Assembly (NCBI GenBank): GCA_003024785.1
Contig: PUQB01000136.1
Span: forward strand, 372,001-436,000
Direction: 5' to 3'
DNA from: Selaginella tamariscina
Lineage: Eukaryota; Streptophyta; Lycopodiopsida; Selaginellales; Selaginellaceae
DNA length: 64,000 nucleotides
Position 1 is the stretch's first letter. Each line of letters opens with the position of its first letter. Positions 19,501-64,000 of the stretch are shown here, in pieces. A program made the position numbers and the translations under genes. Below the pieces are notes generated by a model. It saw nothing but the letters and a program-made list of their open reading frames with translations, ran no database searches and had not been told where the DNA came from.

Positions 19501-20647
19501 TATTAGACTTAATTTATAAGTTCAAAACCTTTTTCATTAATAAATTTCACATATCCTTTAAAAATAATTAAATAACATATTTATATGCTCTTTAAATAAT
19601 TTACAATTATACATGTATTAACTTCGTTGTAGAACTATAAATATTAATAAATTAAAATACATATTGAGTATGCTTAAATTTCAATATAATTTTTAATTGA
19701 AATTTTAAAATATTTTAATATAATTTACTTTAACAACAATTTGTATAATTAGAAAAAAACACAAAAATTATTACACAAGTTAATTCCAACAACATATATT
19801 TTTTTTTAATCTTTATATTCATTTTTCTTATTTGTTATTTATTTTTAAGTGAAACCTTATACAAAGTATTTTTAGTTATACATTAAATTTCTGTTATATT
19901 CATGATTCTAATAATCAAAATATTTATTATATATTATATGTTTATTAATAAAAGAAAATTGTTTATGTTACCTTAATATCACAAGTTATATTAACATAAA
20001 ATATACTTCTTTTTTTATTTACACTTACTCCAAATGCAAATACATATTTAAAAATAATACCTAATTATAAATTTAGACTTTACTAAATGTATATAAATAA
20101 TAATTACTTTTAAAGTATATATTTATATACCTTCTATTGCAACTTAAAATTTCTCAATGTAAAGTATATTTTAAATATGATATATTAATATACATTTATG
20201 ATCTTCTATATGTATAGTATTACAAAAGTTTTAATATTACATTTGCAATTATCTTAAATTTACTTAAAGTTTCTCAATATTTAATATTTTAAAAGGATGT
20301 TAGATCAAAATAGTGGAATCTAACGTATTAATGACAATTAAATGTTCAAAAGTACTTTAAATTTAATCCTTTAATTAATGAATTAAAATTTATTATTAAA
20401 GTATAATTAATTTAAATTATAACTAATAATTTGATTTTACTTACTTTAGTTACTTATCTAATTCATTTAAAAGTATAAATTTCAAGTAAGAATAATAATC
20501 AGAGCTACCCAGCAAAGCCCTAACAGTCATTAATCTGATGCGCTGTATAACCGACCTAAAACCAGAGCGTCTCCAATAGACCTAGGAACAGAGCATTTTC
20601 AACAGCCCTAAGGCTTAGGGTTTTTGCTGCCAGAAAGCAAGGCGGCG
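16277..20647. other. Long AT-rich intergenic region upstream of Snu114
   Basis: I find no convincing exon. The stretch is extremely AT-rich with microsatellites near 16495-16530, 17008-17035 and 18130-18158. From about 18020 to the gene it has an inverted, diverged copy at 42394-44130. A telo-box-like pair (gccctaaggcttagggttttt) sits at 20605-20625, 23 bases before the ATG. Confidence 0.6.
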
Positions 20648-22903
20648 ATGGACGACAGCTTGTACGATGAGTTCGGCAACTACATCGGCCCCGAAATCGA
20701 GTCGGAGGATGAGCAATCTGACGAGGAGGAGGAGCAACAGCAGCGGATTCCATCAGGTATGTGTATGCGTTGTGTGCGAACCTGGGCATGCGTGGTTGTG
20801 TGTAAAACTGCGTTTTGTAGCTGCATTTGTGTATGTGTGTGTGGCTGTGTGTATGTGTTTTGTTGGGTTAACTTATCATCGAAGAATCCAAGCAGATGGG
20901 AATGGCTACCATCAAGGCGACGAGCTCCTTGATGGTCCAGAAGACATGGAAACAGAGAATGCCATTGTTCTTGCCGAGGACAAGAAGTATTACCCAACAG
21001 CCATGGAGGTACCAATACATATACACAGTATAGGGTTAGTATTACTATACTGGAAATGGGTTTACACAGGTCTATGGGGAAGGTGTGGAACACTTGTCAT
21101 GGATGAAGATGCACAACCCCTTGAAGAACCCATCATCAAGCCTGTCCGTGCAAAGAAATTCGAAGTCGCATCAAGGTTTGTATATCTGTGAGAGTATCAC
21201 ACGCATGTATATCTGCGAGAGCTTAAGATGGTGTATGCGTGTCTCTCTCTAGCTATATAAAGTCATGAATAGCAACCACTTGATACGCCTTGTGCATGTT
21301 TACATAGTTTGGTCTCGGTTATGTGTGTTTGTGCGTCTTACGTATATGTGGACAGGGAAGGAGTCCGGACTTTTGTCTCGACGGAATTCATGCTTGGGCT
21401 GATGAGCAACCCGGGATTAGTTCGGAACGTTGCATTGGTGGGCCATATTCAACACGGTAAAACTCTTTTAATGGACATGTTAGTCGAACAAACACACGAC
21501 ATGAAGACTCTCGATCCCAATTCCGAGAAACATTTAAGGTATTACCTATACATGTGTATCTCTGTATGCACTTTATCTATCTACATATTATATGAGCTCT
21601 ATGTATGAAATTATCTTTATACGGTCTTTGTTACATAGATACACAGATACTCGTATTGATGAACAGGAGAGGCAGATTTCTATAAGGCTATGCCTATGTC
21701 CCTGGTACTTGAAGATAGCTCTGGCAAGTCTTATCTATGTAATATCATGGACACTCCCGGTCATGTAAACTTTTCGGATGAGATGACTGCTGCTCTTCGT
21801 CTTGCTGATGGTGCTGTCATTGTTGTCGATGCTGTTGAAGGCTCAATGGTGTGTAATGTATAGATGCACATACATATATAGCGTAATATGATACATCAAA
21901 ATCAATGTGTTACTATATATATATAATGTTATGGTAACACTTGTTGATATATCTGCAGGTAAACACAGAAAGGTCTATCAAACATGCAATAAGCGAAGGA
22001 CTTCCTATAGTCGTTGTCATCAATAAGGTACCCGGCTAAGATCTAATTAGTATATTTCTGTGCTCACGCAGAGGTGCATGCACGTACTACAATCACTTGC
22101 GTATGATATGTTTGATCCTATGTACATGTACATGCATTACATGCATGCAGATGTGTGTGTGTGGGCGCGATGTATACTGAGTTGTTGCTTTTTGTGTAGA
22201 TGGACAGACTAATTACGGAACTAAAATTACCACCAACAGACGCATATTATAAGCTCAAGCACATAATAGAGGAGATAAACACCTACATAGGCACCATCTC
22301 AACAGGTATCACAATAGATCCGGACTTGGAAACATTTGTTTTGCCAGTGCAACTGCCGGGTGGTCATTCACACTGTTGTCATTTGCGAAACTGTATGTGA
22401 AACTACACGGCATACAATTCGACGCAGAGAAGTTTGCTAGTAAACTGTGGGGTGACTATTACTATCACCCTGATTCAAGGACTTTCAAGAGAAAACCTCC
22501 TCCCGGTGGTAGTGAACGTGCGTTCGTACAGTTCATATTGGAGCCTCTCTACAAGGTATGCCGCTGTTTGTGTGTGTACATAAGTTTTTGTTAGATTATA
22601 AGTGTATGAATGTTATATAATGTTGATGAATATATATTAACACATTAATGTATTATAGATCTATAGCCAACTTATAGGCGAGCACAAGAAGAGTGTGGAG
22701 ACAGTATTGGATGAATTAGGTGTTAAACTAAGCAATGCAGCTTACAAATTAAACGTTAAGCCACTCCTTAAACTCGCATGCAGTTCAATATTCGGCTCTG
22801 CTACAGGCTTTACGGACATGCTCGTAAAGCATATTCCCTCTGCTCGTGCTGCAGCTGCTAGCAAAGTCCAGCATATTTACACGGGTCCACAGGAGGTATA
22901 TAT

Positions 22904-29400: not shown

Positions 29401-32400
29401 GCGTTTTATTTCGTAAAATATAAGAAAAACCATAAATCTTAAATAATTATCCATTGTAATAGAACTCTAATATTATTAAGCAATATGACTTCCATAAATT
29501 GGTAATAATGATAATATTACCTTTTTACAAATTTAATAATTCATTGTAATTCATGGTAGAACTTTAAAACATTACCAATTAAACATATATTGTACAATAC
29601 AACATAAATTTCTAATTTAATAAATACCATAAATATTAACAAATAAATAACCAAATATTAGTAATAATTAATATAACTATATTATTTTAGAGTTAAATAG
29701 CTTTAACTATGAATTAATTATAGCATTTTATTGATTTCTCAAAAGATTTGCATTTTAGAGTATATATTTAAACACGCAAATTATATAAATTGTAAATGTT
29801 TTTAAGACTAATTCTAATCCGACACTCATATATAGTGTGTGTACGAATTTTCGTTAATCTATAAAAATTGAAACATTATACATTTATACGACTATAGTAT
29901 ATTTTGGTTATTTAAAACCAGTGGCCTTCAGCTATAAACCAGTTTAATAATTTTGAATTTAAATTAAAAATTTCTAAAACAGACATTTATCAAAATATGT
30001 AAACATTTACTAACTTTTAAACTGAAATATTAAAGGGCAGTCGTGAGGTCGATTCTTCAGACCTTTAAAATAAGTCTGTTTATATTATAAATCTTCAGTA
30101 TAAACTTTTATATGGGCATAATACATCTATAACATGAAATATGAGTTTGCCTCTTTTTAGAACTTCAATCCTTTATAATATCAATATATACTATATCAAT
30201 ATGCAGATTGCATATATTACACACATGTTGTAAGTATCGAACAAGTAAAGGAAGATAAACATTTGTGTTTAGACATATATATATCATAGTACATATATAT
30301 ATACCCATATATAAACCCATTTTATTCACATGTACGTATATATGTGAATATTCCTTATATACTCATACACAAATATTAATGTTGAAGACATATACTCAAA
30401 TACACATGTACACACAGTATTTATGTGTATGTGTGTGTATATCCATTTTATATACGAGACAACGGAGTGTTTTATTTAACATTAATTAATTTTATAATGT
30501 TCTTAAATACAAATTCTGGCATTTTAATAATGAAATACGGTTTTGAGATTTATGACTGAAAATTTATCCTTATAATATAATAATTATAAGTTAAAATACA
30601 TAAAGATTTAATTTACACATTTTAAATACATATGTATAATTTAATATATAGCATTATCAGACACTAGTATTAGAATTAAGTATATTCTAATATTTAATAC
30701 TGATACTAAGTATACATAGTATATACTAATATTTATTTATCATTTAAAATATTCGTGGACCTTATAGCTGTGGTGGTGTTTACATTTACTTATTGTTTTA
30801 TTAACTACAAGAAAAACGCCGCCCATATACGACATACATTCATCATTCATTTATAATATAATATACACAAATATAATCAATTAATTTAGCTACCTTAATA
30901 TTTCACTATTCTATGGTAAACAATTAACACTGTAATATCTGTATATTTTTTAGTTAACTTGGGTCATTCACACCAAATTTATCTAAGTTTTAAATAGTGA
31001 ATTTATTTTCAGTAACACTTAATTTAGTAATTTTTTTATTTAAATAACTGAAGTGTTTGCTGTTAAGTGTGAGACATTTTTCACAAAATTTCTTTATTCA
31101 AAATAAGTAACCATTTTCTAAGAGACAGTCCCAAGGTCAGTTAAACTATTTGTCGAGTATTCACACGTGTGAAAATTAAATTAAAGAATTATATGTGAAC
31201 GACGTGTTTTTAACTTAATTTTAAATTAAAAATGTTTCACTTATTTAAGATTTAAGATTTAAGTTAAGACTCTGAACCCTTAAGTAGACCTAAGTAAAAT
31301 TAAGTTAATGATTTGTGTAAATGGACGACACTTTTCATTTTAATATTTTATTTTCTTTTTTATAGTTTTCATATTGTGGGAATTGTTAATAAAATATTCT
31401 ATAACCGAAGTTATAGAATATTTCATTAATGTATTCTCCTAAGCTCACATGGTATTATAATTAAATATATTTAATAACCTTATTGGAAATATTTAAAAAT
31501 AATTATTAATTATTTTAACACATAAAATTTAAAAGCATGAACATTCCACTACATTTAACGTATTGATTGGTGTAATGTAATAATACTTAATTTATTATAA
31601 AAATTTTAAATAACTCATTCTTTTGATTTTCTATTACTTATATTAATACAAGTTCATTAATATCCAATATAATCGATATATATGTCCCTGAATCACAGTT
31701 AATTAAGTTAAGGATTTAATGATTTTATATGCATTGAAATGATATAAATTAAAAAGACCTTCAGGCTTAATGCATTTCATTTATATACACGAAACTTAAT
31801 TAATTGGTAAATATTCAAATCTAAAAAATAGTATTTTAAAAAATAGTATTAATATACTAATACGAGATTGTGAAAGATGTATCTTAATAAATAAATATTA
31901 TAATCCAAACCTCCAATACAGTAAGTAACTTGTGTTTTGTATCAACAGGTGAAATATTAATATATTTTATATGGTTATAGATAAATTAGAATTTTATATT
32001 TGATATATTTAATGATGTCATTTGATACGCACTAGCATTTCAATCACAATATAAGAAAAATATTTTATTTTCATTTATTATCATCCGTAACTTTTAAGGC
32101 ACCCAAATACTTTCTCTTTCGGATACTTGATTCAGCAGAAATTTAAATTCTTTAAAATTTTAAACATAAAAGTTTATTAATTAAGATTTTAGTAATGATT
32201 ATTATAAAACGTGAATACATCTTTACGAATTCACAATTAAAACTGAAAATATTTAACTTAATACATGCATTTAAATATGTTGTGTGTATATATATATATA
32301 CATATATTTTGTATCTCATCTTTGACACACACATGCATATATGTTTATATACATCTGTCTGGCATTTATGGGGCCGCTATATTACTGCATTTGTAAATGG

Positions 32401-32922
32401 CATACACATATACTTATTTTATGTATTAAATGGCATACACCGTACCTGTGTGCGTGCGTGCGTGCGTGTTATAAGCATTTTCAATCTTAGAATACTTCCG
32501 CAACAACATAATGTGCTATAGCTGCAAAAGAATTCCATATAAATAGCCGTGTGTGTTGAAGTATAACTTAAATACGATTTAAGTTATTTAAATATACAAA
32601 AGCTTGAGCATTTAATTTAGAGAATTTCACTTTAAAATTTACTTAAGCAACACACATAATATTACCGTACGACAACAAAGACTTGTGGTGTGTGGTGTGT
32701 GTTTATATATATATATTATATATAATAAATAAATAATAAAGGTAAACCAGAACATTAACTTTTGATGTTCACACACACATGAACTATGTACAGTCCCAAT
32801 GGAATTTAAATTCAAATGCAGGCATGCAAGAGAGATATATGTGCTATCTCTCTCTCACACACACCCGCACGCACGCACGTATTATGTATGATAATGTGGT
32901 ATCTTAAATATAAATGCAGTAC
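26416..32922. other. AT-rich intergenic block, parent of the 44.1-57.8 kb copy
   Basis: I see no gene in this block. From about 26590 to 32770 it is matched in direct orientation by 44130-48657 plus 56645-57830; a clear anchor is acaagtatgcacgggaatta at both 26949 and 44451. It keeps the unoccupied target site of the transposon (tcgatatatatg at 31673-31684). A private stretch near 28190-28330 holds three variants of gagccgttggatc. Microsatellites include (GT)n near 27060 and GA-rich DNA near 27118-27150. Confidence 0.65.
31673..31684. other. Empty target site of the ParB-methyltransferase transposon
   Basis: The sequence tcgatatatatg followed by tccctgaatcacagttaat is the uninterrupted counterpart of the two tcaatatatatg copies that flank the element in the second duplicate. 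It shows that the element inserted after the duplication. Confidence 0.8.
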
Positions 32923-42110: not shown

Positions 42111-42393
42111 GGCACCATTCACTATCTCTGGCTGTTGCTCCACTAAACTTCTCTTCCCTCCTCTAACAAGCTCATGAACCAAATACTCTCAGGCTACAAT
42201 TTTATAAATTTTTTGTAATGATGGTTGCAATTATGTTGTCCACTTATGTATAAATTGTTGCTCATAATCATGTCAAGTTAAGCAGTACACAACATAGATT
42301 TAGTTTACTCTTAAATAGCAAAATGTTTTCATTTATTTTTAAACTATATACATGTGTGTGTGTGCGCGCGTTTGCGTGCACACGTGTATATTG
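42111..42393. other. Junction region ending at the duplication breakpoint
   Basis: AT-rich and non-coding. It ends in a GT/CA and GCGC microsatellite (42352-42392), immediately after which homology to Snu114 exon 3 starts in inverted orientation. Confidence 0.6.
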
Positions 42394-42845
42394 TGCGTCT
42401 TCATCCATGACGAGTGTTTTCCACACCTTCCCCATAGACCTGTGTAAACCCATTTCCAGTATAGTCAATACTAACCCTATACTGTGGTATATGTATTGGT
42501 ACCTCCATGGCTGTGGGTAGTACTTCTTGTCCTCAGCAAGAACAATGGCATTCTCTGTTTCCATGTCTTCTGGACCATCAAGGAGCTCGTCGCCTTGATG
42601 GTAGCCATTCCCGGCATCTCTTCGATGATAAGTTAACCCAACAAAACACATAGACACAACCACAGACACATACACAAATGCAAACTACAAAACGCATTTT
42701 TACGCTACCCAGGCTCGCACACAGCGCCAATGCGCCATACATACAAATGCAACTACGCATACACATACCTGATGGAATTCGCTGCTGTTGCTCCTCCTCG
42801 TCAGATTGCTCATCCTCCGATGTAGTTGCCGAACTCATCACCGCC
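42394..42845 (-). pseudogene. Inverted partial copy of Snu114 exons 1-3
   Basis: On the minus strand the acidic head ([19 protein letters not shown]), the intron, [20 protein letters not shown] (exon 2) and VYGEGVE (exon 3) are recognisable and diverged from the gene at 20648-21115. Homology stops in the middle of exon 3, directly after the GCACAA codons, so the GTPase domain is absent. The start region has lost several codons, and exon 3 carries an extra A where the parent lacks one. The copy keeps the parent promoter, including aaaaaccctaagccttaggg (42859-42878). A truncated transcript is conceivable but no functional protein. Confidence 0.85.
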
Positions 42846-48657: not shown

Positions 48658-48669
48658 TCAATATATATG
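48658..48669. repeat. Left target-site duplication
   Basis: The 12-mer tcaatatatatg recurs at 56633-56644. The parental copy has tcgatatatatg once. Because the site is AT-repetitive, the true duplication could be 9-12 bases, within the Mutator-like range. Confidence 0.75.
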
Positions 48670-48682
48670 AGTCGACGAAAGA

Positions 48683-48782
48683 GGGCTTCCGGGCTCCGGG
48701 CTTCCGGGCTTGGACCCGGAATATTCTAAAGAATCTACCAGAATATTCTTAGAATATTCCTAAATATTCTTAGAATTTAGGA
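48683..48782. repeat. Left terminal region: CCGGGCTT repeats and GAATATTC cluster
   Basis: Three tandem-like CCGGGCTT blocks are followed by ggaatattc, agaatattct, agaatattcc and taaatattct within 65 bases. The half site CAGTCGGCA of the internal array follows at 48791-48799. Confidence 0.7.
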
Positions 48783-48889
48783 TTTTGGCTCAGTCGGCAA
48801 TTAACAACAAAAAATATTTAATCATAGCCATGTTTATACTGTATTATTAAAGTTTTATTTCAACACCAAAGAGTACAATTCAACACTTG

Positions 48890-51800
48890 TCACTTCTTCT
48901 TACGATTGAGCAATGCTGCAATTCGTGAACCACCAGTCCTACTTGACGTCGCTATTGGTTGGGTTGGGATTTCCTCTGGCTGGATGTTCTCTTTAATCCT
49001 GTTCATAGCAATTCTCCCGAGCTCAGGGTTCTTCTCAGTCCCAACAATGTTTCTCCCCAGCTCGATAGCTGCAAGCATTGAGGACCCCGTACCACTGCCT
49101 ATATCCCAGATAAGATCACCTGGCCGGGTGAGTCGTTCTATCACGAGCTGCATCAATCGAGTGCTCTTCGGTTGGTAGTCCATCCTGCATGTGAAGATAA
49201 TGGTAAATACTTAAATTGTTGAAATGAAATGCCTACCATGGTTCTTGGAACCGCTCAGGATTATCAACAAGAATTGTTGATGACAAACGCAGTGGATTAT
49301 CGCGCAATCCTCTAGATGCATCTTGGAAGACAAGAAGGAGCAGGATGCTCTCCTGTTAAAACATCAAAAATCATTAATGAACTTCATGAATAAAGAAAAA
49401 AGTACCTTCATCTTGTTGCGGTAGCCCCAACCACGCCCTCTGTAGATGTAGTACGTTGCAGCAAGTTGAAGGTCCACCACACTTGCAGCTCGGACAACTT
49501 GATCCCAGGTGTTTGCTGCAGCAAACACAACCAACCAACCATTTGCAGCCATATGCATACCTGCAAACTGGAGTGCTTCATCGAACTTCACTGGATCAAG
49601 GTAGAGGTATGGCGTATCACTCGTTGTATTTCCTGGCAAGGTCCCATTTGGAAGGTCGAAGATCACCAAGTTGAAACCATATTCTCCCGCAATATGCTGG
49701 TAGCGAGTCTGGCTGTCAGCTGTATGGTACCTGGCCACCTGTGTCTGAACTTTTCTATAAGGAACCAGTCTAGCGTCAGGAACCTCCTCTTCCTTCTCAT
49801 CCGTGAGCACGGCCTGTTGCATCTCCTCGATGTCATCAATCGCCAAGAAATTATCACCTCGAGTTGTAGCAAGTGAAGGGACGAATGTGACCAAGTCATC
49901 CTTGATGTCCATGTCCCTGCGATGGCAGCACTTCAGATAAATTGAAGAAGGCAGCTGGATCGCGAGTAGTGGAGGTGCCAGCTACTGTATCTGAGGTCTT
50001 CTTTGACTGCTGCACAGGCTGACGCCGCTTTGCCTTGGCCTTTGTCTTCTTAATGAAGTCGACCTCTGCCGGATCCCATGAGATGCATGGGAGATCTTTT
50101 GAGTGTTCATTGTAGAGATCCTTCTCCCATGTTGGTGGTTGCCCAGGTGGATAATCAAGCCAGAACGGTACGTGTACACGCTCGAACTCTGTCAGGCCAG
50201 ATCTTGTCTTCGACCACATGTGTGGTGCTTCCATGTAATCTGACCAGAATACCATAGTCTGTGTGTGAGGCACCTTTCTCGCTGCGACATACCTGTAATG
50301 AACATATAGTAGTGTCAGAATGTAACAATGTCAAGAAGATCATCCTTACCTCCAAATCATCCTTCTTGCTGTCTCTTCGTGTTCGAGGAACTCTTTCGGC
50401 TCTATGGAGTAAGTGAACTTCACACACTCATGGAATGGCTGGAACATCACGTTCTTGCATTTTACCCGCACTTCATCGCACCAAGTCGTGAAATCTGTAA
50501 CCGGCCTGCTCCACTCGCCATCCTCGATGAGTCCCGTGAGAATCTGTACTGCCTCCTCTCTGATTGCCCGCCAATACAAATCGATAGTAAACCACCTTAT
50601 CCACTCCTTATCCTGAACACCCGGCAATCCAAGTGTCTCTTGCTCTCTCTTCAGATCGAGACGTACCAGTTTATTGAAGTACATGATTCTCGTCTCGTTT
50701 GGAATTCTCGCCCTTGAAAGCGCGTACAGCTTTTCCAACCCCATCCATCTGCATTGTTTCCATGTGATTTGGGTCACCTTGTCGAACCACTCTTCACCCA
50801 ATGCAGGATCGATGATGGCTAAGATCTTCATCATGCGCTTGTCATGCTTAATGTAGACCTGTTGTTGCTCCTGGTATTTGTTGCCTTTGGATGCCCTTGC
50901 AGCCTTCTCAAGATCATCCTCAATCTCACTCTGTAATTCACAGACGTAATCAACTAAGTGATATAAGTGTGAGACGTGGTACCTCAAAAAAGATCTTTGC
51001 ACAGATCAAATTCGGAAGTGGATGCCAAGCTTGTTGTCCAGTCGCGCTTTCCTTCCACTTTCTTATGTCATCTCGTTCCTTGTCACTGAGCCTGGCCAAG
51101 ATCTTCGCTGTGCCCTCCTCACTGGTGCAACATGTCTTCACAGATAGCAGAAGATGTGGCAGTGTGGTTTGCACTGCCGTTGCGGAGGAACTGCATATTT
51201 GAAAAGCTCGAAGTTAGTTAATCCTATGATCTAGAGGTCACTATGTTTACCTATTAATTTGCTGAAACATTGTCACAAGCTGAAGATTATCCATGACCCC
51301 AGCACGGATGAAGCCTGAACGCACTCTCACTGCCCACTGATTCTTATCTTCCGTGTCTTCTGTGTACAGCTTCTGAAGCACCTTTAGCCTGTGATTACCA
51401 TCCCAACAGATGAACTTCTTCATCGAAAGCATTGGTGCCCATTGCCGGAACATGTCGGACTGAAGCTCCTCCTCAAAAGCCAAATGCTGAGCATACATCG
51501 CTTCATCGCTTCTCAATGCTGCCAGATCTGCATCTGTCATGGGGTCCCCAACTTGAAGGATGAACTGAGTGGTGTTGCGCAAATAACCAACTGCCTTCTT
51601 GAAACTCCTAGTCAAAGATTCCAGATCCGCTGGATTGACTCTCCGCACCTGCTCATTTCCCAGAATTCGGCAAATAGGGACATCCGGTGCCTCTCCATAT
51701 TCTCGGATTGTGATCTTCGCGAGAAGACGCACTGCACTCTCCGAATGCATGCTGGCTGCAATGTTGTAAACTTCCTCATTATCTGGCACTTCTGCTTTCC

Positions 51801-52208
51801 CTTCTTCTTCTTCTTAGCAGCCTCTGAATCTCCAGCAGCTTTGCGTCGTCTCTTCTTGCTCTTGGGTTCATCCTCTTCGTCACTCGACAAAGTCACTGCG
51901 CATGAGGCTTGTGTGCCTTCTGTCTGCTCCTGTGTCTCCTGTGGTAAGACATCATCCTCAACTTCTTCAACAAAGTCTGATTGTTCTTGTTGGGGTTGAA
52001 CTACATCCTCTTGCTCTCCTGACCAGTCCTGCTGGCTTGCCTGTTCAACTGGAGCATCACTTGAAGGTCCTTGTTCCTGAACCACAGCCAGCTTCCTACT
52101 TCCTCTCCCACGACCCCGACGCCCTCTCTGAATTGCAGCTCTAGCTTCTGCTTCTCTCTCAGTAGGCTCCTTCATCTTCTTTTCTTGTAAACGTTGTGAA
52201 GAGCGCAT
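48890..52208 (-). CDS. Transposon-borne ParB-like / N4-N6 DNA methyltransferase fusion
   Basis: Six exons on the minus strand: 51251-52208, 50983-51190, 50350-50930, 49406-50292, 49237-49352 and 48890-49184 (TGA), about 1,010 residues. The start is ATG at 52208 (MRSSQRLQEKKMKEP). Residues 1-150 are Arg/Gly- and Gln/Glu-rich with a strong NLS (KSKKRRRKAAG, KKKKKGK). Exon 1 then has a ParB-like block: VPICRILGNEQVRRVNPADL, and after a helical insert ICWDGNHRLKVLQ. The C-terminal third is methyltransferase-like with permuted (beta-type) order: LVIFDLPNGTLPG (motif IV position) and GWLVVFAA first, then KSTRLMQLVIE (X), DLIWDIGSGTGSS (I) and GTEKNPE (II). Amino-methyltransferases of this type make N4-methylcytosine or N6-methyladenine. 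Single-base frame faults lie near 51800 and 49910. The motif IV variant leaves activity open. Confidence 0.75.
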
Positions 52209-53267
52209 CTACAAAAGCAATAAGGTTTAACAAAAAACTGTAATAAATGTTCAAAGATGTTTAATAAAAATTAAAAAAACATACTAGCCCTCACAGTCGG
52301 CGTGCCGACTGAGAGAGCAGTTGCTGTAAGTCCCAGTCGGCATGCCGACTGGGACTGGCATCAAAGGGAGCCCAGTCGGCATGCCGACTGGGCTGGCATC
52401 AAAGGGAGTCCCAGTCGGCATGCCGACTGGGACTGGCATCAAAGGGAGTCCCAGTCGGCATGCCGACTGGGCTCAACAAAGGGAGGCCCAGTCGGCATGC
52501 CGACTGGGACTGGCAACAAAGGGAGTCCCAGTCGGCATGCCGACTGGGCTGGCAACAAAGGGAGGCCCAGTCGGCATGCCGACTGGGACTGGGAACGAAA
52601 GGCCCAGTCAAAATGCTAGGTGGGACTAGAACAGTCAACCCTAGTCAAAATGCTGACTGGGGCTGGAACAGTCAACCCCGGTCAAAATGTTGACTGGATC
52701 TGGAACAGTCCACCCCAGTCGGCCTGCCGACTGGGACGGACAACGAAGTCAGTCCGAGTCGGCAGGCCGACTCGGATTTCTTGCAACTGTGAAGAGATGT
52801 AAAAAGATGAACAGATCATGAAAAGATCATGAGCAGATCATGAAGAAATCAGAAAATACTCACCCCCTCAATGGAAGCCTATTGTGATTAATCCCTGGAG
52901 CCACACTTGCTCCACGCTATGCCCCCAAATGCGCCGCTGCTCCACGAAAACCTAGCCGCCCTCGCTGCCCTAGCCGCCCTAATTGCAAAACCCTAGCCGC
53001 CCTAAATCAATTAAAAACCAACCTAATTTCTGTAAACATATTGCATGCATGATCGCCACTTGTACATAGTAAAACTTTTTAATTTACAAAAAACCTACCC
53101 AGACGCAGTAAATTAATTTCACTCTTCTACCCAGACGCACGCAATTAATATTATTTTTAATATTTGTCAATGAAATGATTGCCTCACGACTGACAAACAC
53201 ATTAACCATCGTGTGTAATATGTTCATTGTCTTTGAATTTTAACTTTTGTTTTTCCATTTTTGCTAC
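52209..53267. promoter_or_regulatory. Divergent intergenic control region of the transposon
   Basis: It lies between the methyltransferase ATG (52208) and the transposase ATG (53268). It contains the palindromic array (52294-52776), then tandem-like aaaagatcatgagcagatcat repeats (about 52800-52845). Next is a GC-rich stretch with repeated cctagccgccct units (52945-53005), then AT-rich DNA with a duplicated cccagacgca (53098 and 53131). Confidence 0.6.
52294..52776. repeat. Tandem array of perfect palindromes AGTCGGCATGCCGACT
   Basis: Seven identical 22-bp palindromes (CCC-AGTCGGCATGCCGACT-GGG) start at 52332, 52371, 52410, 52450, 52487, 52527 and 52566, a spacing of 37-40 bp. They are joined by spacers such as actggcatcaaagggagt. 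A variant unit precedes them (AGTCGGCGTGCCGACT, 52295). Diverged units follow, with AGTCAAAATGCTGACT and finally AGTCGGCCTGCCGACT and AGTCGGCAGGCCGACT near 52718-52770. The array is the most GC-rich DNA of the window and can form hairpins. Confidence 0.95.
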
Positions 53268-56200
53268 ATGGCAAGAATCAGCTACAATGGTGTTGACAAG
53301 GACTTCCCTGCAGATGAAGATGGTATTGCATTTGTCTTTGAAACAGATCTCAGGTCTGCATTTGACATTCCACCTTGGCAATCTTTTAAAGTGCTGCATT
53401 TGATGTCTGTTGTTGGTGGAGATGCTGCGAATGTTGAGGTAGAACCAGAAGGGGCAAGAGCTAGCAGTTTTGTGTATTACACACTTCTTCCTTCCAAAGG
53501 ACCGCTATTCCGGTTGGAGACAACAGATCGGGACAATTCTATGGTAACAATACTTCGCAATAGTCAGAGATGTAGGATTGGGAAGCAACTGGTGGTCTCG
53601 TCATCGATTCAGCAAGTTGCTGAGGTCCCAGAAGATTGCAACGGAAATGTGATTTACGAGTTGCCAGCACACGAAACAATGAAGGACAAGTACAAAGGGA
53701 TGAATAGGAAGGATGGGTGTGATTACTGGACTCAACGCTGCACAACACATTGGAATGTTCCAGCTCGTGTTAGTCGCAGTTCATGTATTGGCCACATGAA
53801 ATGCGTAAAGGAAACATGTCCGTTCATCAGCTTCAGTAAGAAAGCAAATGACTGCCAATTTAAGGGCACCATTGATAAAGTCCAGTTATCTTCAGATGGT
53901 AGAGTGCTTGGAATGAAGTGTGTGCATTGCAACAATGAGCCCCTTCTAGTGCAGACATGCTCCGTTGTTGCATATTACATAATTCCAGATGATATCACAT
54001 GCACGAGGCTTTTCATCCATCTTGGAGAACATCAACACCCACGTAGACCACCCGAATCCATGGTCTCTAAAGACAGAGCTAAGGAGACAATCAACAAAGC
54101 AGTCGCTGCAACCCCAAGAACTAATCAACGTGTCATAGAGTTTCAAGCAGCACGCAATATAATTTTGGAAAAACTGGTAACAGATTCTGGAGATGTATCA
54201 TACGACAAGGTTCTGTCAGATCTACTACCACTCACAAATCACCGCCGGTAAGCAAAAAAATTATTATTTCCTTTTGGAGATGCTTAACCTTTCCAATGTA
54301 GAACAAGAGAATGGATATCTCAGGCTAGAACAACAGACACTCGTTTCAAAGAAGGTTACGAAGGACTTCTGCAGTTAAAGAAGAAGCTATCAATCCCATT
54401 CATACATGTTATCCACATACCCGGAATGGACCTCAACGGAGCTGAAGAGCAGCCTTTAATCTTCAAAATGACGTTGCCGGCCCAGGATCCGGAATAGACT
54501 ACATTAGAAGGTGTCAATCTGGAGGTGATCTCGAACAGCAGTGGGTGGTGCTAGACCACACATATCGTATTGATGATTGGTGTACACTGGGAATACATCT
54601 CTATGATCCATTGTAAGTATTAACATATCTATGTTTTAAAATACTTACTAATATAATGCACTTATGTTTGTGTGTTTAAGGTCGATGGTGACACTTGCTT
54701 ATGGTGACATGATCAGGGAGGATAGTGTGGCGGTGATCAAATTTTTGAACACTATGCTTCAAGTGTGCAGCAAGCAAGGACTTCATAATGTGAACTTTGC
54801 GGGGTTCATGTCAGATGAGTCAGGTGCAATTTGGTTAGCATTGCGTCAAGTTTTCAACAATGGGTCAAAGGAGAGGAAGAGAAAGGAGTTGTTTGTTCCA
54901 TTACATGCAGTCAGTGCGTCAAGTTACAAAGAAGTGGATACTTGAGGAACACAGGGAGGAGCACATGAACCTTGCACGCTCATGGCCTGCAGCACTAACC
55001 AACCAAGATAAGTTGGAACGACGAGTAATGTTGGAGTCATTTTGGGAAGGCAGGTCCAGTAACGTTAGCGCTTTGCAAACATGGCTGTCATGGTGGGCAA
55101 GACATGAAGATCATATTTCCATGACAGAGATAATTGACTTGACAGAAGATGGTGTTGCGAATGTGCCTACCACTAACAACTCCGAAGTTGTTCATGCAAG
55201 AGCACGAAGAGCAAGGCTGACGAAGCGTGTTCCTTTGTTGGAGGCAACAATGTTAGATTTAACAGATGCTGTTTTCCAAAGTGCAAAGGTCAAGGCATCA
55301 TTTGAAGGGAGATATTCAGGCACAGGGTCCTTCCATGGAAACTCTTCTGAAACGTGCACAGCAGAAACTTTCAGCGGGAAAATCAGTGTCTCCAACAACT
55401 TTTGCAAATCTTGTTAGTGATGAAGAGCATCTTGCAAGTCCAGAGTTTGCCTCTACAACAAATGTTCGTGTTCGAACCGTTCGTCAACCGTCAACTGGGG
55501 ACCATGGGATTGATGCACTTCGTACACATAGACATGACACACAATATGCAGAACAAGTCATCCCAAATGCACGCAGGAAAAAACTCAAGTTTCAAGATGT
55601 CAATGTCACTGAAAGAGAGACGTTGATGACTCAGTGGGCCATCAGACGCATTGGGGAGGCAAGTCAGGTGAAATGTCTAGGTCTCACTCAGGACGGTAAC
55701 AACAAGTGTGGCAGACCCATAGGATATCCACATCATGTACCGGCACCAGGATTTCACGGTAGACGGCAATATACAAATGCATTTGGGAACATTGAGTTCA
55801 CTCATCAGATGCTATGGTTCTGCCCACGCGATTCTTGTTGCTTCAGACGACCATATGCAGGGATTCCTCCTGAGAGTATTCCAGAAGTTCCAGAGGTTTG
55901 GCCAGTTCAAAAAGGAATAAACTTGAATGCAAATGAGTTGAAGCTCTTCTGAAAGCAAGATTCAAGTTGGAGGGATTTGAAGAAATGGTAGACGACAGTA
56001 GTAGCCGAATGGATCGAACACCATCACCACCAAGAGGAGAGGGAGCACATAGAGTACCAACATACCATGGACGGAGTGTGCGAACACCAACAAGAATGTC
56101 CAAGGAACATGAGAAACATTACAACCAGGCAAAGATTCTTCAAGGTCGATCAAACAACGTGGAGGTGGTTCAAAGAGGGAAGACTGAGGCCTTCATTGTC

Positions 56201-56437
56201 TCTGCAGGCATGCAATCTGCTAAGGTAACAATTTCTGCTGTTCCGTCATGCACTTGTGCAACTTTTCAGAAAGCCAAGAACTGGAGCCCCTGCCAACACA
56301 TGTATTTTGTGTACACTCATGTTCTTGGATTAGACCCAACGATTACTTACTTCTTACAGAGGCGGACCCTTACTCCAGCAGAAGTGCATCGGTTATTGGT
56401 TGGTTGCAAGCGCAATGTCGAACCTGCGACTTTTTAA
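53268..56437 (+). CDS. Mutator-like transposase with SWIM zinc finger
   Basis: Exons are 53268-54247, 54302-54612 and 54681-56437 (TAA), about 1,015 residues. The N-terminal part has a Cys/His DNA-binding module (CIGHMKCVKETCPF, CVHCNN, GEHQHPRRP) of the WRKY-GCM/FLYWCH kind. The middle has a catalytic-domain pattern: QWVVLDHTYRIDDW (first Asp) and NFAGFMSDESGAIWLALRQV (second Asp). The C-terminus has SCTCATFQKAKNWSPCQHMY, a C-x-C...C-x-H SWIM finger typical of Mutator-like transposases. Frame faults lie near 54490, 54890, 55270-55400 and 55945; each looks like one base. The start is the ATG of MARISYNGVDKDFPA. It presumably recognises the element ends or repeats. Confidence 0.75.
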
Positions 56438-56459
56438 GTTAGTTGGTATAGTAAAGTCT

Positions 56460-56619
56460 AGTCGGCAAATAATTAGCGTTTTTCACTTGTTGGTCGGCAT
56501 TTTATAATGAAAGTTAAAGATAATCTACTTGGCAGAATATTCTAGAATATTCCCTTTTATTTGACAGAATATTCCTGGATATTCGGGAATATGCGAAAAG
56601 CCCGTTGTACGAAGCCCGG
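56460..56619. repeat. Right terminal region: AGTCGGCA half sites and GAATATTC cluster
   Basis: AGTCGGCA at 56460-56467 and GGTCGGCA at 56492-56499 repeat the half site of the internal palindromes. The 20-mer AGAATATTCTAGAATATTCC at 56534-56553 is a perfect four-unit nGAAnnTTCn series, followed by more GAATATTC. CCGGGCTTC (inverted) lies at 56611-56619. Confidence 0.75.
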
Positions 56620-56632
56620 TTTTTGCTAATCC

Positions 56633-56644
56633 TCAATATATATG
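56633..56644. repeat. Right target-site duplication
   Basis: tcaatatatatg, identical to 48658-48669. It is followed by the continuation of the duplicated block (tccctgaatcacagttaat). Confidence 0.75.
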
Positions 56645-57300
56645 TCCCTGAATCACAGTTAATCATGTTAAGGATTTAATGATTTATATGCATTGAAATG
56701 ATATAAATTAAAAGGCCTTCAGGCTTAATGCATTTCATTTATATAAACGATTGGTATATTAATGCTATTTTTTAAATACCTATTTTTTCTGATTTTGAAT
56801 ATTTACCAATTAATTAAGTTTTAATTAACTATCACTAATACGAGATTGTGAAAGATGTATCTTAATAAATAAATATTAATAATCCAAACCTCCAATACAG
56901 TAAGTAACTTGTGTTTGTATCAACAGGTGAAAATTAATATACTTTATATGGTTATAGATAAATTAGAATTTTTTATTTGATATATTTAATGATGTCATTG
57001 ATACGTACTAGCATTTCAATCACAATATAAGAAAAATATTTTATTTTCATTTATTATCCCCCTTAAGGCACCCAAATACTCTCTCTTTCGGATACTTGTT
57101 TTCAGCAGAAAATTTTCAAACTCTTTAAAATTTTAAACATAAAAGTTTACTCATTAAGATTTTAATGTTGGAAGTAATGATTATTATAAAACGTGAAATT
57201 TTTTTTTAAAATGTGAGATCTGGATATTAAACACATCTTTACGAATTCACAATTAAAATTGAAAATATTTAACTTAATACATGCATTTAAATATGTTGTG

Positions 57301-57345
<45 letters not shown>

Positions 57346-57830
57346 CACACATATATGTTTGTATCTCATCTTTGACACACACATGCATATATGTTTATAT
57401 ACGTCTGTCTGGCATTTATGGGGCCGCTATATTACTGCATTTGTAAATGGCATACACATATACTTATTTTATGTATTAAATGGCATACACCGTACCTGTG
57501 TGCGTGCGTGCGTGCGTGCGTGTTTATAAGCATTTTCAATCTTAGAATACTTCCGCAACAACATAATGTGCTATAGTTGCAAAAGAATTCCATATGAATA
57601 GCCGTGTGTATAACTTAAATACGATTTAAGTATTTTAAATATACAAAAGTTTGAGCATTTAATTTAGAGAGTTTCACTTTAAAATTTACTTAAGCAACAC
57701 ACATAATATTACCGTATGACGACAAAGACTTGTGGTGTGTGTATTGTGTGTGTGTGTGTGTGTGTGTAAATAAAGGTAAACCCAGAACATTAACTTTTGA
57801 ACTATTTAACCATTAATTATAATTAATTAA
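56645..57830 (+). repeat. Direct copy of the Snu114 downstream region (right part)
   Basis: Matches about 31685-32770, for example ggccgctatattactgcatt at 57422 and 32371. Similarity ends near cccagaacattaacttttga at about 57800, the same point where the parent block meets the pterin dehydratase fragment. Confidence 0.8.
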
Positions 57831-59400: not shown

Positions 59401-59887
59401 CTATTCGTACTCTATGCTGGATATCTCAACACTCCCACTCAGCCGTGAGAGTTCAAGATGGTCATTCAAGACCAGTGTCGTTAGAAAGTATCTGCTCAAG
59501 GCCTTGGTCATAATATTTGCAACTAAACACATGCTTGAGTTTGATGTTCCTGCTTGAACCTCTTGTCTAATAAAGTGGTACTTCACATCAACATGCTTAA
59601 CTTTGTCATGGTGTATGGGGTTCTCTGAAGTAGTTATGGTATTGGTCCTATCACAATATATTGTGATCGGCTTTGGAAATGAAATTTCCATGCCCTTCAG
59701 TAACTTCATTAACCACGTTGCTTCATTATCCGCCTTTGTTGCTGAAATGTACTCGGCCTCCATCAAGGAGAGTGCAATCACTCGCTGCATTCTGCTCATC
59801 TAACTGATAAGTCCATCATCCAGAAGAAACACATATTCTGAAGTGGGCTTCCTGGTCTCCATGTTTCCTGCCCATGAAAATGGCTAG
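59401..59887 (-). mobile_element. Ty1/copia retroelement remnant: RNase H end of pol
   Basis: The minus strand encodes WAGNMETRKPTSEYVFLL, a TAG in place of the usual Trp codon, then RVIALSLMEAEYISATKADN, YCDRTNTI, NPIHHDKVKHVDVKYHFIRQ and IMTKALSR. This is the classic copia RNase H block. Integrase and RT are absent, so the fragment is dead. The 5' border runs directly into the tandem array. Confidence 0.9.
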
Positions 59888-61010
59888 ATAAAACAAAGAA
59901 CTAACTATCTATCTATAAAGAACATGTGCATGACTCGTCCTAATAATTGAGCGGTTCCTGCATTCTGCTCATCTAACTGATAAGTCTATCATCCAGAAGA
60001 AACACATATTTTGAAGTGGGCTTCCTGGTCTCCATGTTTCCTGCCCATGAAAATGGCTAGATAAAACAAAGAACTAACTATCTATCTATAAAGAACATGT
60101 GCCATGACTCGTCCTAATAATTGAGCGGAAGTGGGCTTCTGATCTCCATGTTTCCTGCCCATGAAAATGGCTAGATAAAACAAACAACTAACTATCTATT
60201 TATAAAGAACATGTGCCATGACTCATCCTAATAATTGATAGATAAAACAAACAACTAACTATCTATCTATAAAGAACATGTGCCATGACTTGTCCTAATA
60301 ATTGAGCGGAAGTGGGCTTCTGGTCTCCATGTTTCCTGCCCATGAAAATGGCCCTAATAATTGATAGATAAAACAAACAACTAACTATCTATCTATAAAA
60401 ACATGTGCCATGACTCGTCCTAATAATTGAGCGGAAGTGGGCTTCTGTATCTATCTATAAAGAACATGTGCCATGACTCGTCCTAATAATTAAGCGGAAG
60501 TGGGCTTCTGGTCTCCATGTTTTCTAAATCTATCTATAAAGAACATGTGCCATGACTCGTCCTAATAATTGAGCGGAAGTGGGCTTCTGGTCTCCATGTT
60601 TCCTGCCCATGAAAATGGCCCTAATAATTGATAGATAAAACAAACAATAACTATCTATCTATAAAGAACATGTGCCATGACTCGTCCTAATAATTGAGCG
60701 GAAGTGGGCTTCTGTATCTATCTATAAAGAACATGTGCCATGACTCGTCCTAATAATTGAGCGGAAGTGGGCTTCTGTATCTATCTATAAAGAACATGTG
60801 CCATGACTCGTCCTAATAATTGAGCGGAAGTGGGCTTCTGGTCTCCATGTTTCCTGCCCATGAAAATGGGCTAATTGAGCGGAAGTGGGCTTCTGGTCTC
60901 CATGTTTCCTGCCCATGAAAATGGGCTTCTGTTCTCCATGTTTCCTGCCCATGAAAATGGCTAGATAAAAACAAACAACTAACTATCTATCTAGAAAGAA
61001 CATGTGCCAT
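59800..61010. repeat. Complex tandem array derived in part from the copia fragment
   Basis: About ten partial copies of a module (agaacatgtgccatgactcg, tcctaataattgagcggaag, tgggcttctg) are shuffled with a second module (gtctccatgtttcctgccca, tgaaaatgg) and with gataaaacaaacaactaact. The second module is the antisense of the copia codons for SWAGNMET, so the array grew from the adjacent element end. Unit order is irregular. Confidence 0.85.
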
Positions 61011-61078: not shown

Positions 61079-61544
61079 ATCCTGGATGCTGAACTACACC
61101 ATCAACAGCAAGGCGTATATTCATACGCATGTTCCAGACTTGTGGACCACACATTCCAGACCAGTTGTGGATCACACATTCCAGACCAGTTGTGGACCAT
61201 ACAATCCTCAGGACCTCAGATATATAAACAGGGTTCCAGTTCCAGGTTTCTCAGAATCATTCAACACCAGTCTTCGGCCTTGTGTTTCATTTTGTATTCA
61301 TTTCTTTCTTGAATACAATCTCCTCCTTTCAAGGTTCCACCCTTGTTCTAAAGGTTTCGCCCTTTGCACAAGGTCGTGACAGTTTGAATGATTCTGGGTA
61401 GTGACAAGCTTCTGTTTCCGCTTGTCATCGATCCCATTTTCTTTCTTTCTCTCTTTTCAATTTTCTTTTCGATTTTTTTCTTTTTTCTTTTCTTTTCTGA
61501 TTTTCTTCTCTTTTCTTTTTTTGATTTTTCTTCTTCGACTCATC

Positions 61545-62449
61545 ATGTCCGAGCATGCTCTTCATGAGCAAGTTGCTGCCCTCCAGCAGCAGCTCGAACA
61601 ACTACACCTGGAGAATGATCAGCTCCGACAGCGTGCGAATTCTCCAGAGCCAAAGATCAGCATGCCCGAAAAGTTCGATGGTACCCGATCGAAGTTCCGA
61701 GGTTTTCTCAATCAAGTTCGTCTGCGGATCGTGATGCAGCCGAGGCGCTACAGCACAGAACCCATTAAGGTTGGATTGATCGGGTCGCTGCTTTTGGTTC
61801 TGCTCTTTCATGGTTCTCAGCCTTGCTGGAGAACAATGATCCGATCCTTGGGAATTTTGACGAGTTTGTGGAACGGTTCACGGCGATGTTCAGTGACGTG
61901 GATCGTGAGAGTGCTGCCATCACCAAACTCCGTCAGCTTCACCAAGGGGGTATGTCGGTAGCAGAGTACGCATCGAAGTTTCAACTTCTTGCTTGTGATG
62001 TCACATGGGGAGATCGTGCTCTCAAGGAGGTTTTCCGGTCGGGGTTGCAGGACGAGGTCAAAGACATGTTGCTGAATTTTGCGGTTCCGGAAACCCTCAC
62101 CAGCATGATCGAGTTGGCAATTCGTTGTGACAACCGGTTGATCGAGCGGAAACAAGAACGTCGGCATCCTTCTTTCTTCTTGGTGCCGTCTTCTTCCATT
62201 TCTGCAGTCCCTGTTCCCTCATCTGCTGATTCATCATCTTCCTCAGTAGAACCATCCCCGATGGAATTAGGGCGATCACGCCGAGGCAAGCTTTTGCCAA
62301 CCGAACGTCAGAAGCGGATTCAGTACAAGCTTTGTTTGTACTGTGGGGACCCGTACCACAAGTTGGAGAATTGTCATCGACGTCCAAAACAAGCTCGTGA
62401 AGTGGCCCTTGCTGTGCTGCCGGGAAACGAGAAGATCCAGCCCGAATAG
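61545..62449 (+). CDS. gag: Gypsy Gag with CCHC knuckle
   Basis: Begins MSEHALHEQVAALQQQLEQL, a coiled coil, then MPEKFDGTRSKFRGFLNQVR. After a frameshift near 61790 it continues LENNDPILGNFDEFVERFTA and MSVAEYASKFQLLACDV. It ends with a zinc knuckle CLYCGDPYHKLENC (C-x2-C-x4-H-x4-C) and a TAG stop. The fold and wording match retrotransposon Gag of Tf1/sushi-like chromoviruses. Confidence 0.8.
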
Positions 62450-62550
62450 GAGCCGTCCGGCTGGATTGCCGTGGAACAACTCATGTTCCTCAAGGCTCTT
62501 CACTCATAACATCTTCCCTTCCTCATCTTGGATCCATTCCATCCACGAAG

Positions 62551-64000
62551 GTGTGCAAGCCGTTCCATGTTCCGGTGCAGCTGAAGACACCAGAGGTGGA
62601 GTTCTCTGGTAAAGCTTTGGTGGATAGCGGAGCGAACGCAAATTTCATCGACAAGAATTTTGCTGTCAGGCACGGGATCCGTCTACATCCTTTGAAGACT
62701 CCTGGTTCTGTACGGGTCGTTGATGGACGAGATATCAAATCTGGAGCGGTAATAAATGACACGGAGTTCGTTGAGGTCGTTGCTTGCGGTGCTGTGTGCA
62801 ACATCTCCTTCAGTGTTGTTTCTATTCCAGACTCTACGATTATCCTTGGTTTGCCGTGGATCGAGTTGGTGGATCCTGGTTGGAGAGAACGTTTCATGAA
62901 CAGTTTCCCAGCTGTTTCAACTCCAGCCACACTCTTTGATTCCGATCCTGTTCCAGTTCCTCCTCCACTTCGAGTCTCGCATATCACCTTGAAGCAGTTC
63001 AAGAAAGATAGCCGACATGACCCAGCATCCGTGTTCGCGATCAAAGTCTATCCCTGCTCTGCTAAGGATGTTTCTGTTCCTCCTGCCTTACCAAAGCAGT
63101 ATGCCGATTTCGCAGACGTCTTCGACAAAAAGAAAGCTTCTGCCTTGCCACCGCACCGTGAGTACGACTGTCCTATCGATCTCGTTGAGGGTAAGCAGCC
63201 GTCCTCCGGTCCCATTTACGGTCTCTCACCAACAGAGTTGGAGACATTGAGGAGAATCTTGTCACCGGATTTATCCGTCATTCGCGATCACCGGCTGGTG
63301 CTCCAGTATTCTTTGTTTCCAAGAAGGATGGAAGTCTCCGGCTCGTGGTGGACTACCGAGATCTGAATAAGGTCACCATTCCAAACAAGTATCCTCTCCC
63401 GCTCGTCTCCGACATGCTCGAACGTCTTTCTGGTGCCCGGTACTTCACAAAGATCGATTTAAGAGGAGCGTACAATCTCATCCGAATTCGAGAAGGGGAC
63501 GAGTGGAAAACAGCTTTCCGTACACGCTACGGACATTTCGAGTACGTAGTAATGCCGTTCGGCCTGACAAATGCACCTGCTGTGTTCCAGCACATGGCTA
63601 ACGATATTTTCCGGGACTTCTTGGATTTGTTTGTCATCATGTACCTAGACGACATCCTGATATTTTCCAAGACTCGAGAAGAACACGAACGGCATGTACG
63701 GTTAGTCTTGGAGAGGCTCCGGAAGCACCACTTGTTTGCCAAGTTGGAGAAGTGCTCTTTCAGTCAGCAGTCTGTCGAGTTCCTGGGGTACATCATTTCA
63801 GCTGAAGGTGTTCACATGGATCCTGCAAAAGTCCGGACTGTATTGGAGTGGGAGAGACCATCAAATGTTCGTGATGTTCGATGTTTCCTCGGGTTTGCGA
63901 ACTTCTATCGACGTTTCGTTCGGGATTTCTCCAAGATTGCATTGCCATTGACGAAGTTGACTGGCAAGGATGTTCCATTTGTCTGGTCCTCTGAGGCTGA
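62551..64000 (+). CDS. pol: Gypsy Pol: protease and reverse transcriptase (runs off window)
   Basis: The aspartic protease shows [13 protein letters not shown] and IILGLPW. The linker ends in [13 protein letters not shown]. After a frameshift near 63262 the RT reads [53 protein letters not shown], the catalytic [10 protein letters not shown] and [18 protein letters not shown]. The [20 protein letters not shown] wording is close to fungal and vertebrate sushi-type chromoviruses. The YLDD box is intact. The reading frame stays open to the end. Confidence 0.88.

Follow-up and report, generated by a model that had tools for sequence, protein, structure and literature searches.

A probable Mutator-like transposon of Selaginella tamariscina with a divergent gene for a bacterial-type methyltransferase domain and a palindrome array between its genes

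Results

An element of 8 kb with two divergent genes

We analysed a window of 64,000 nucleotides (64 kb) from Selaginella tamariscina (assembly GCA_003024785.1, contig PUQB01000136.1, positions 372,001 to 436,000), in which positions 48669-56634 form a DNA transposon of 7966 bp. The element carries a transposase-like gene and, divergent from it, a second gene, PBM, with a methyltransferase domain of bacterial type. A sequence-only reading made earlier had described a target-duplicated element of about 8 kb with a SWIM-type transposase and a divergent, spliced protein joining a nuclear localization signal, a ParB-like domain and permuted methyltransferase motifs. It was silent on the palindrome array, the frameshifts in the window and the copy number. 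The element ends were placed by alignment of copies, and a perfect 9-bp target site duplication (TSD), AATATATAT, was found on both flanks (Table 1), in agreement with that reading. A perfect 9-bp TSD was present in 18 of the 20 sequences with both ends found (family A, the window counted); L016 and L027 were the two without it. The length of 9 bp, observed for family A only, lies within the 8-11 bp used as a criterion for Mutator-like elements (MULEs). The two ends have GAG...CTC alone in common and form no long terminal inverted repeat (TIR). MULEs of this kind, non-TIR MULEs, are on record (PMC6446971; papers cited by PMC number are drawn on here through excerpts). One locus, L015 (G000:C531:71250-80200), was an inverted composite in which two left element halves lay face to face. 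Rfam and tRNA scans of the 64-kb window gave no match.

PBM is located on the minus strand (52208-48890) and has six exons with GT-AG borders, giving 1015 aa; the transposase-like gene is located on the plus strand (53268-56437) and has three exons with GT-AG borders, giving 1016 aa. Both proteins are composite readings, and none of the copies aligned carried PBM intact. The divergent, spliced second gene of the sequence-only reading was recovered in this structure, and its NLS-like part corresponds to basic stretches at aa 118 (KKRRRK) and aa 132 (KKKKKGK). The other landmarks of PBM are DGNHR at aa 270, DLPN at aa 796 and DIGSGTG at aa 945.

Table 1. Features of the element, with positions in the window.
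Feature	Position	Strand	Remark
Left TSD AATATATAT	48660..48668	.	same letters as 56635-56643
Whole element, GAG...CTC	48669..56634	.	ends from copy alignment
GGGCTTCC short tandem repeat, left end	48683..48711	.	copy number differs among copies
AGAATATTC cluster, left subterminal, candidate transposase site	48719..48759	.	end-specific motif
AGTCGGCA site, left subterminal	48792..48799	+	
PBM exon 6	48890..49184	-	predicted SAM-binding half (DIGSGTG), stop codon; ORF holding it matched PF01555 at E = 7.5e-10
PBM exon 5	49237..49352	-	GT-AG borders; open in 13 of 15 copies
PBM exon 4	49406..50292	-	motif IV position NLVIFDLPN; 2-nt deletion near 49913 in window
PBM exon 3	50350..50930	-	conserved middle region; window open; most aligned copies broken near 50567
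PBM exon 2	50983..51190	-	splice sites
PBM exon 1	51251..52208	-	basic N-terminus, DGNHR motif; 1-nt frameshift near 51798, in other copies too
Palindrome array	52295..52772	.	7 perfect AGTCGGCATGCCGACT plus diverged units
Transposase exon 1	53268..54247	+	
Transposase exon 2	54302..54612	+	candidate first catalytic D in VVLDHTYR
Transposase exon 3	54681..56437	+	candidate second D (FMSDESGAIW), C..H (SCLFHYMQ), C-terminal SWIM-like region; several indels in window copy
AGTCGGCA site, right subterminal	56460..56467	+	further one, GTCGGCA, from 56493
AGAATATTC cluster, right subterminal	56534..56574	.	
Right TSD AATATATAT	56635..56643	.	same letters as 48660-48668

In the transposase, candidate catalytic positions were placed by eye at D aa 412, D aa 476 and C..H aa 502 and 505, an order that is MULE-like by eye only. 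The C-terminus matched the SWIM profile PF04434 weakly (E about 0.003), with 17.4 bits in family A and 17.5 bits in family B, below the cut-off of 19.6; a C-terminal SWIM zinc finger is common in MULEs and not universal. Of the SWIM-type transposase proposed earlier, the plus-strand transposase gene was found, and the SWIM assignment has this match under the Pfam cut-off. A search with transposase residues 130-990 against 5.8 billion proteins gave none at E<=0.01 among the 7324 candidates scored. Exon 3 forms a long open frame in many of the genome matches listed, for example one of 607 aa.

Methyltransferase domain of PBM

PBM matched the N6_N4_Mtase profile PF01555 with E = 7.3e-9 and 36.3 bits (cut-off 26.7), over profile positions 165-220 of 221 only. 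The PBM protein of the second, more divergent family B matched the same profile with 36.8 bits, also over the cut-off. The C-terminal part further matched PHROG 67 (E 4.5e-12), and the nearest solved enzymes to the C-terminus were the beta-class MboIIA, DpnA and CcrM. The motifs are in permuted order, DLPN ahead of DIGSGTG, as had been read from the letters, motif IV being placed by position and not by profile; the half of PBM that holds it had no profile match. DIGSGTG and GTEK did not change between families A and B. As judged from the sequence, the S-adenosylmethionine (SAM)-binding half of PBM is clear. Forms of the catalytic motif IV include SPPY, DPPY, NPPY and DPPW (PMC8885841), and phage vir524 has DPAY. 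Ordinary catalysis by PBM is doubtful because DLPN lacks the aromatic residue, and the active modification enzyme proposed earlier found no support at this motif; nor did the earlier inference that such a cargo marks or protects copies of its own element gain support. The conservation of the motif IV segment between the two old families argues that it has a function.

A phage or virus source was sought and is disfavoured. A scan of viral contigs with the methyltransferase alignment returned 161 pattern matches and 0 relatives. In tblastn, 593 phage records matched the domain at E<=1, with a best E of 3e-5 and coverage below 80% throughout, and the 25 rows listed concerned mostly the C-terminal part. 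The 239-aa methyltransferase region, searched against 5.8 billion proteins, gave none at E<=0.01 among the 807 candidates scored.

The DGNHR region and the ParB assignment

The ICWDGNHRLKVLQ motif on which the ParB-like domain had been proposed is present in PBM. By eye, VPICRI...RRVNPADLESLTRSFKKAVGYL followed by FICWDGNHRLKVLQKL gives the order of a ParB N-terminal domain interrupted by some 42 inserted residues. The DGNHR region had no match in Pfam (E<=5 to 10; for both members of the two-family alignment at E<=10, PF02195 included), in PHROGs or NCBIfam at E<=1, among PDB sequences at E<=10, or in phages by tblastn at E<=10; PF02195 had no match in two phage records. AlphaFold2 (AF2) models of the DGNHR exon were too poor, with a pLDDT of 42.7 for the exon alone and 50.8 with five rows. 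At that pLDDT of 50.8 the predicted order of strands and helices fits a beta-alpha-beta-beta-alpha core with a G/DGxxR box, and ParB was missing among the listed Foldseek matches of the five-row model. Alignment by hhalign to 80 bacterial ParBs placed the first motif in the expected register with a probability of 0.3%; the reversed profile did slightly better, and roughly one in three of 30 shuffled profiles equalled or beat it. When the presumed insertion was cut out, the alignment stayed in register through both motifs, but 10 of the 40 shuffles made for comparison reached its score. Searches with the joined protein upheld the methyltransferase half of the earlier proposal and gave no ParB or sulfiredoxin match; the ParB domain is left with its motif, and with no support from profile, fold or hidden Markov model.

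Palindrome array and shared motifs

Between the two genes lie seven perfect palindromes AGTCGGCATGCCGACT (52335-52584) at a pitch of 37-40 bp, together with diverged units. The length of the array differs between copies: 2 to 7 perfect 14-bp cores were counted per array in 21 sequences, spaced mostly 36-40 bp apart, and the C72 copy has ten perfect sites among those listed. Genome-wide there were 1142 exact matches to AGTCGGCATGCCGACT and 0 to the reversed control. At 52603-52720, diverged units AGTCAAAATGCTGACT stand in place of AGTCGGCATGCCGACT, several of the changes being G-to-A or C-to-T, of the kind expected when methylated cytosines deaminate.

The 8-mer AGTCGGCA was the sole 8-mer common to all six noncoding segments, i.e. 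left, middle and right of families A and B, the borders in B being estimated from the alignment. It occurs 19 times in the 64-kb window, every time inside the element (0.60 expected), and 10 times in L034, the family B locus compared (0.23 expected). Both families have such sites in the two subterminal regions and between the genes, where most of them lie. The density of half-sites is high between the genes, and the gene regions show no enrichment (A, 0 vs 2.2 expected; B, 2 vs 2.75 expected). In A the sites form palindromes, facing one another, and many of those in B form inverted pairs with a spacer. A different motif, AGAATATTC, is clustered near both ends of A and L034, with none between the genes; 3 of its 11 occurrences in the window and 1 of 8 in L034 (at 8944) are outside the element or presumed end. 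The different placement of AGTCGGCA and AGAATATTC suggests two separate DNA-binding proteins, and which protein would use which motif is our inference.

Copy number, co-occurrence and a second family

The genome searched was a 300.7-Mb assembly of 1391 contigs. The DGNHR exon of family A had at least 151 matches, with 90-100% identity among the matches listed. At least 124 of the 141 transposase matches scored had a PBM exon where the divergent arrangement predicts it. Among the matches listed, 104 of the 141 had the DGNHR exon, 88 the methyltransferase exon and 17 neither. Five further loci taken from the palindrome list all held both genes (L029 is cut). The sequence-only reading had offered as a refutation that the two genes never share the same element ends; in family A both lie inside the same ends.

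Divergent members were taken from a genome search with PF01555, in which 150 of 739 candidates were scored. L034 resembles A in carrying both genes divergently and represents family B, whose DGNHR core had at least 150 matches (92-100% identity, most 99%, among the matches listed). L035-L038 are more loci of family B, and L039 and L040, sought as further divergent families, also proved to be family B. L036-L038 are partly rearranged, with internal deletions or insertions; in L038 pieces of transposase and PBM join at about 3128.

Identity between A and L034 was 45-70% for PBM pieces (70% in the predicted SAM-binding half; 61% and 59% over two aligned PBM stretches) and 56-67% for transposase pieces. 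By simple counting, the proportions of synonymous (pS) and nonsynonymous (pN) differences were 0.83 and 0.28 for PBM (843 codons) and 0.79 and 0.22 for the transposase (995 codons). Within PBM they were 0.87 and 0.28 for the methyltransferase part and 0.86 and 0.30 for the DGNHR part. No pN/pS ratio is given because the synonymous sites are saturated. Saturated synonymous sites with amino-acid sites still constrained indicate that PBM has long been kept as a protein beside the transposase. Together with the co-occurrence, this supports the earlier view of a eukaryotic transposon with a bacterial-type methyltransferase gene as a lasting part of it.

Reading frames in the copies

Fifteen rows were aligned, the window and 14 of the 20 copies first fetched, picked by the DGNHR exon. 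L009, L015, L018, L019, L024 and L025 were left out (end missing, interrupted or doubled, or anchor mismatch); of these, L024 is full-length with a perfect TSD. At the window indels at 49913 (2 nt), 54870, 55325 and 55936, the other state was found in 14 of the 15 rows, and at 54472 the majority state was found in 11. The state of the window at 51798 is not private to it (majority state in 10 of the 15 rows), and the same 188-aa frame resulting from the shift was found in 20 of the listed DGNHR-exon matches, the window counted. In PBM exon 3 the majority state is itself closed near 50567; 5 of the 15 rows, including the window, are open there, and the family B frame continues across the residues of the break.

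Among 182 indels of the gene regions in the 15 copies, 142 were of 1 nt, and the indels were scattered and differed between copies. We think that the frame breaks come chiefly from assembly error, and decay may account for some copies; assembly error is favoured because most indels are single-base, as in uncorrected long reads, but only 43 of the 142 were in homopolymers of three or more. The site at 50565-50571 in exon 3 was read in various ways across the 15 copies (ATTGCCCGCC, ATCG-CCGCC, ATG--CCGCC and others) between almost identical flanks, which may reflect miscalling of a modified base.

A possible footprint of host silencing

Against the consensus of the 15 copies, transitions per 1000 were 6.1 at CG, 4.1 at CHG, 1.5 at CHH and 0.7 at A/T. 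CG and CHG transitions together were 3/1955 in the array, 50/8085 in PBM, 21/6209 in the transposase, 3/335 at the left end, 9/464 at the right end and 1/656 in the remaining middle, with columns of fewer than 12 agreeing copies dropped, which favours the conserved array columns. At both element ends the transition rate was raised at A/T as well. The pattern fits past 5-methylcytosine (5mC) on the copies, and base-calling errors at methylated cytosines could give the same.

Surroundings of the element

Neighbouring open reading frames (ORFs) of the window matched leucine-rich repeat families over the cut-off, EF-Tu-type GTPase families just below it, and a reverse transcriptase. A Gypsy-type retroelement with aspartyl protease and reverse transcriptase ORFs occupies about 61400-63998, with tandem repeats ahead of it at 59785-60960. 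Nearly the same ORF text occurs on opposite strands at 20619-21188, adjoining the EF-Tu-type GTPase match, and at 42271-42684, about 21 kb apart, and is likely a duplication. A repeat with the common ORF text FDTHMHICLYTSVWHLWGRYITAFVNGIHIYLF lies at 32156-32518 and 57278-57529.

Discussion

The best explanation, which we hold tentatively and with somewhat less than even confidence, is a recently amplified family of Mutator-like non-TIR transposons in which PBM would act as a sequence-specific self-recognition protein in the manner of VANC. The transposase would move the element, probably through the end-specific AGAATATTC clusters. PBM would enter the nucleus, where its targets would be the AGTCGGCA/TGCCGACT sites near the two ends and in the array at the shared promoter; by binding them it may counter 5mC silencing by the host and so preserve transcription and mobility of the element, as VANC does for VANDAL elements. 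Its methyltransferase domain would bind SAM. It may either write a mark other than 5mC at or near the array or serve as a non-catalytic module binding DNA or SAM, the latter being considered because motif IV is DLPN. METTL14, with EPPL, is a precedent for an inactive partner.

Several points weigh against this explanation. The role of PBM is drawn by analogy with VANC, and the AGTCGGCA sites, which are also near both ends, might just as well be those of the transposase. The target repeats of VANDAL elements vary between related elements (PMC5735166), whereas here one 8-mer is the same in two old families. Motif IV is DLPN and lacks the form [DNS]PP[YFW] in the window, in the family A reading and in L034, L036, L038, L039 and L040. 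The ParB assignment is a motif-level lead without statistical support. PBM was open throughout in 0 of the 15 aligned copies, each model being frame-broken. Residues 135-1000 of PBM, searched against 5.8 billion proteins, gave none at E<=0.001 among the 7990 candidates scored, and the transposase had no Pfam MULE transposase match (E<=5 for the whole family A protein; E<=10 for the catalytic regions of A and B).

It is possible, though on the unlikely side, that PBM is an accessory transposition factor acting on AGTCGGCA, in a synaptic complex or in licensing of integration, with no epigenetic role and with the methyltransferase fold as a scaffold for DNA binding. The occurrence of AGTCGGCA in both subterminal regions and the array of both families would suit such a factor, DLPN suggests lost catalysis, and a second ORF occurs in some MULEs, in antisense in some (PMC6446971). 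However, most of the sites lie between the genes, the ends own the separate motif AGAATATTC, and a SAM-binding half that is 70% identical between families would need a reason.

We consider it unlikely that PBM is an active N4-cytosine or N6-adenine methyltransferase on the palindromes, with full versus half modification timing transposition or transcription, as Dam sites time some bacterial insertion sequences. The beta-class motif order, the PF01555 match in A and B, the likeness to MboIIA, DpnA and CcrM, and the unchanged DIGSGTG and GTEK argue for such an enzyme, and palindromes suit a mark on two strands. Its motif IV is, however, unlike both the forms listed above from PMC8885841 and the DPAY of vir524. 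More ambitious and rather less credible still is a parS-like system, in which a protein of ParB fold and amino-methyltransferase would load on the AGTCGGCA palindromes of its own copies and write or read an N4-methylcytosine (4mC) or N6-methyladenine mark, possibly with an unusual DLPN active site. It would shield those copies from host silencing, and in this way two families could have come to number at least 150 matches each in one genome.

There is only a slender chance that the array and the subterminal AGTCGGCA sites belong to the transposase alone and that PBM has other targets, such as the chromatin proteins or DNA of the host. Sites near both ends are where transposase sites would be, and nothing ties PBM directly to the sites; against this, the ends have their own motif AGAATATTC, and half-sites crowd the stretch between the genes without enrichment in the genes themselves. 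That PBM was once useful and is now decaying, its copies moved by a transposase made elsewhere, is very improbable. All 15 PBM models have a frame break, the 51798 shift recurs in 20 listed matches and the exon 3 site breaks most copies, but the indels are mostly of 1 nt, scattered and copy-specific as in uncorrected long reads, and the amino acids are constrained between families. Passive capture of a functionless gene fragment, of the Pack-MULE type, hardly deserves consideration: MULEs are prone to acquiring host gene fragments (PMC6446971), but the same gene stands in the same place in two families, and the pS and pN of PBM disfavour it, synonymous sites being saturated and amino acids constrained.

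If PBM protects its own element, as the VANC-like explanation would have it, this would be an anti-silencing system derived from a bacterial-type amino-methyltransferase, apparently unlike VANC. It would show bacterial DNA-modification parts turning into lasting members of eukaryotic mobile elements. The question is testable, with two families, a common 8-mer, saturated synonymous sites and near-identical copies, and with the candidate site, the shared promoter and both proteins delimited. Transposons that carry an epigenetic or self-recognition gene of their own are already known; the combination of a beta-class amino-methyltransferase and a palindrome array appears new. No DNA transposon with both was found in the literature searched, most subscription journals being outside it.

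Like the VANDAL elements of Arabidopsis with their VANC proteins, the element is Mutator-type, has a second gene beside the transposase and carries noncoding motif arrays of changing copy number. The targets bound by VANC proteins are short motifs in noncoding DNA, arranged in tandem, and VANC causes silencing marks to be lost (PMC5735166, PMC10398659); the target arrays vary in length (PMC5735166). PBM differs in its methyltransferase domain and DGNHR motif, by which it is set apart from VANC as described. Its candidate sites are palindromes or inverted pairs, whereas the VANC repeats, in the excerpts used, have the same orientation. Pfam scans of the element proteins named no VANC-type family, and no comparison aimed at VANC sequences was made.

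ParB/parS offers an analogy of working only, a DGNHR-motif protein with clustered palindromes beside its own gene; homology is unsupported and no ParA was seen. With the phage and bacterial beta-class N6/N4 methyltransferases (MboIIA, DpnA, CcrM; PHROG 67), PBM shares the C-terminal, predicted SAM-binding half and the permuted order. It is unlike them in having DLPN at motif IV and about 700 aa without detectable relatives ahead of it. Among other mobile elements, DIRS elements can carry a Dam-like domain.

The bdelloid rotifer N4CMT is likewise a bacterial permuted beta-subtype amino-methyltransferase in a eukaryote, tied to transposons and tandem repeats (PMC8885841). Unlike PBM it is a host gene with a chromodomain and SPPY that deposits 4mC at transposons, and in the excerpts of that paper it is not described as transposon-carried. 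Fungal DNA transposons with a TET/JBP dioxygenase also carry a DNA-base-modifying enzyme, discussed as a counter to silencing, but that enzyme acts on 5mC, is of another class and belongs to fungal hosts (PMC12730594). The retrotransposons of dinoflagellates and charophytes with C5 cytosine methyltransferases (PMC5890265) resemble the present element in encoding a DNA methyltransferase. Those are retrotransposons with a C5 enzyme shown to methylate CG, whereas the Selaginella element is a DNA transposon with an amino-methyltransferase domain and a doubtful motif IV.

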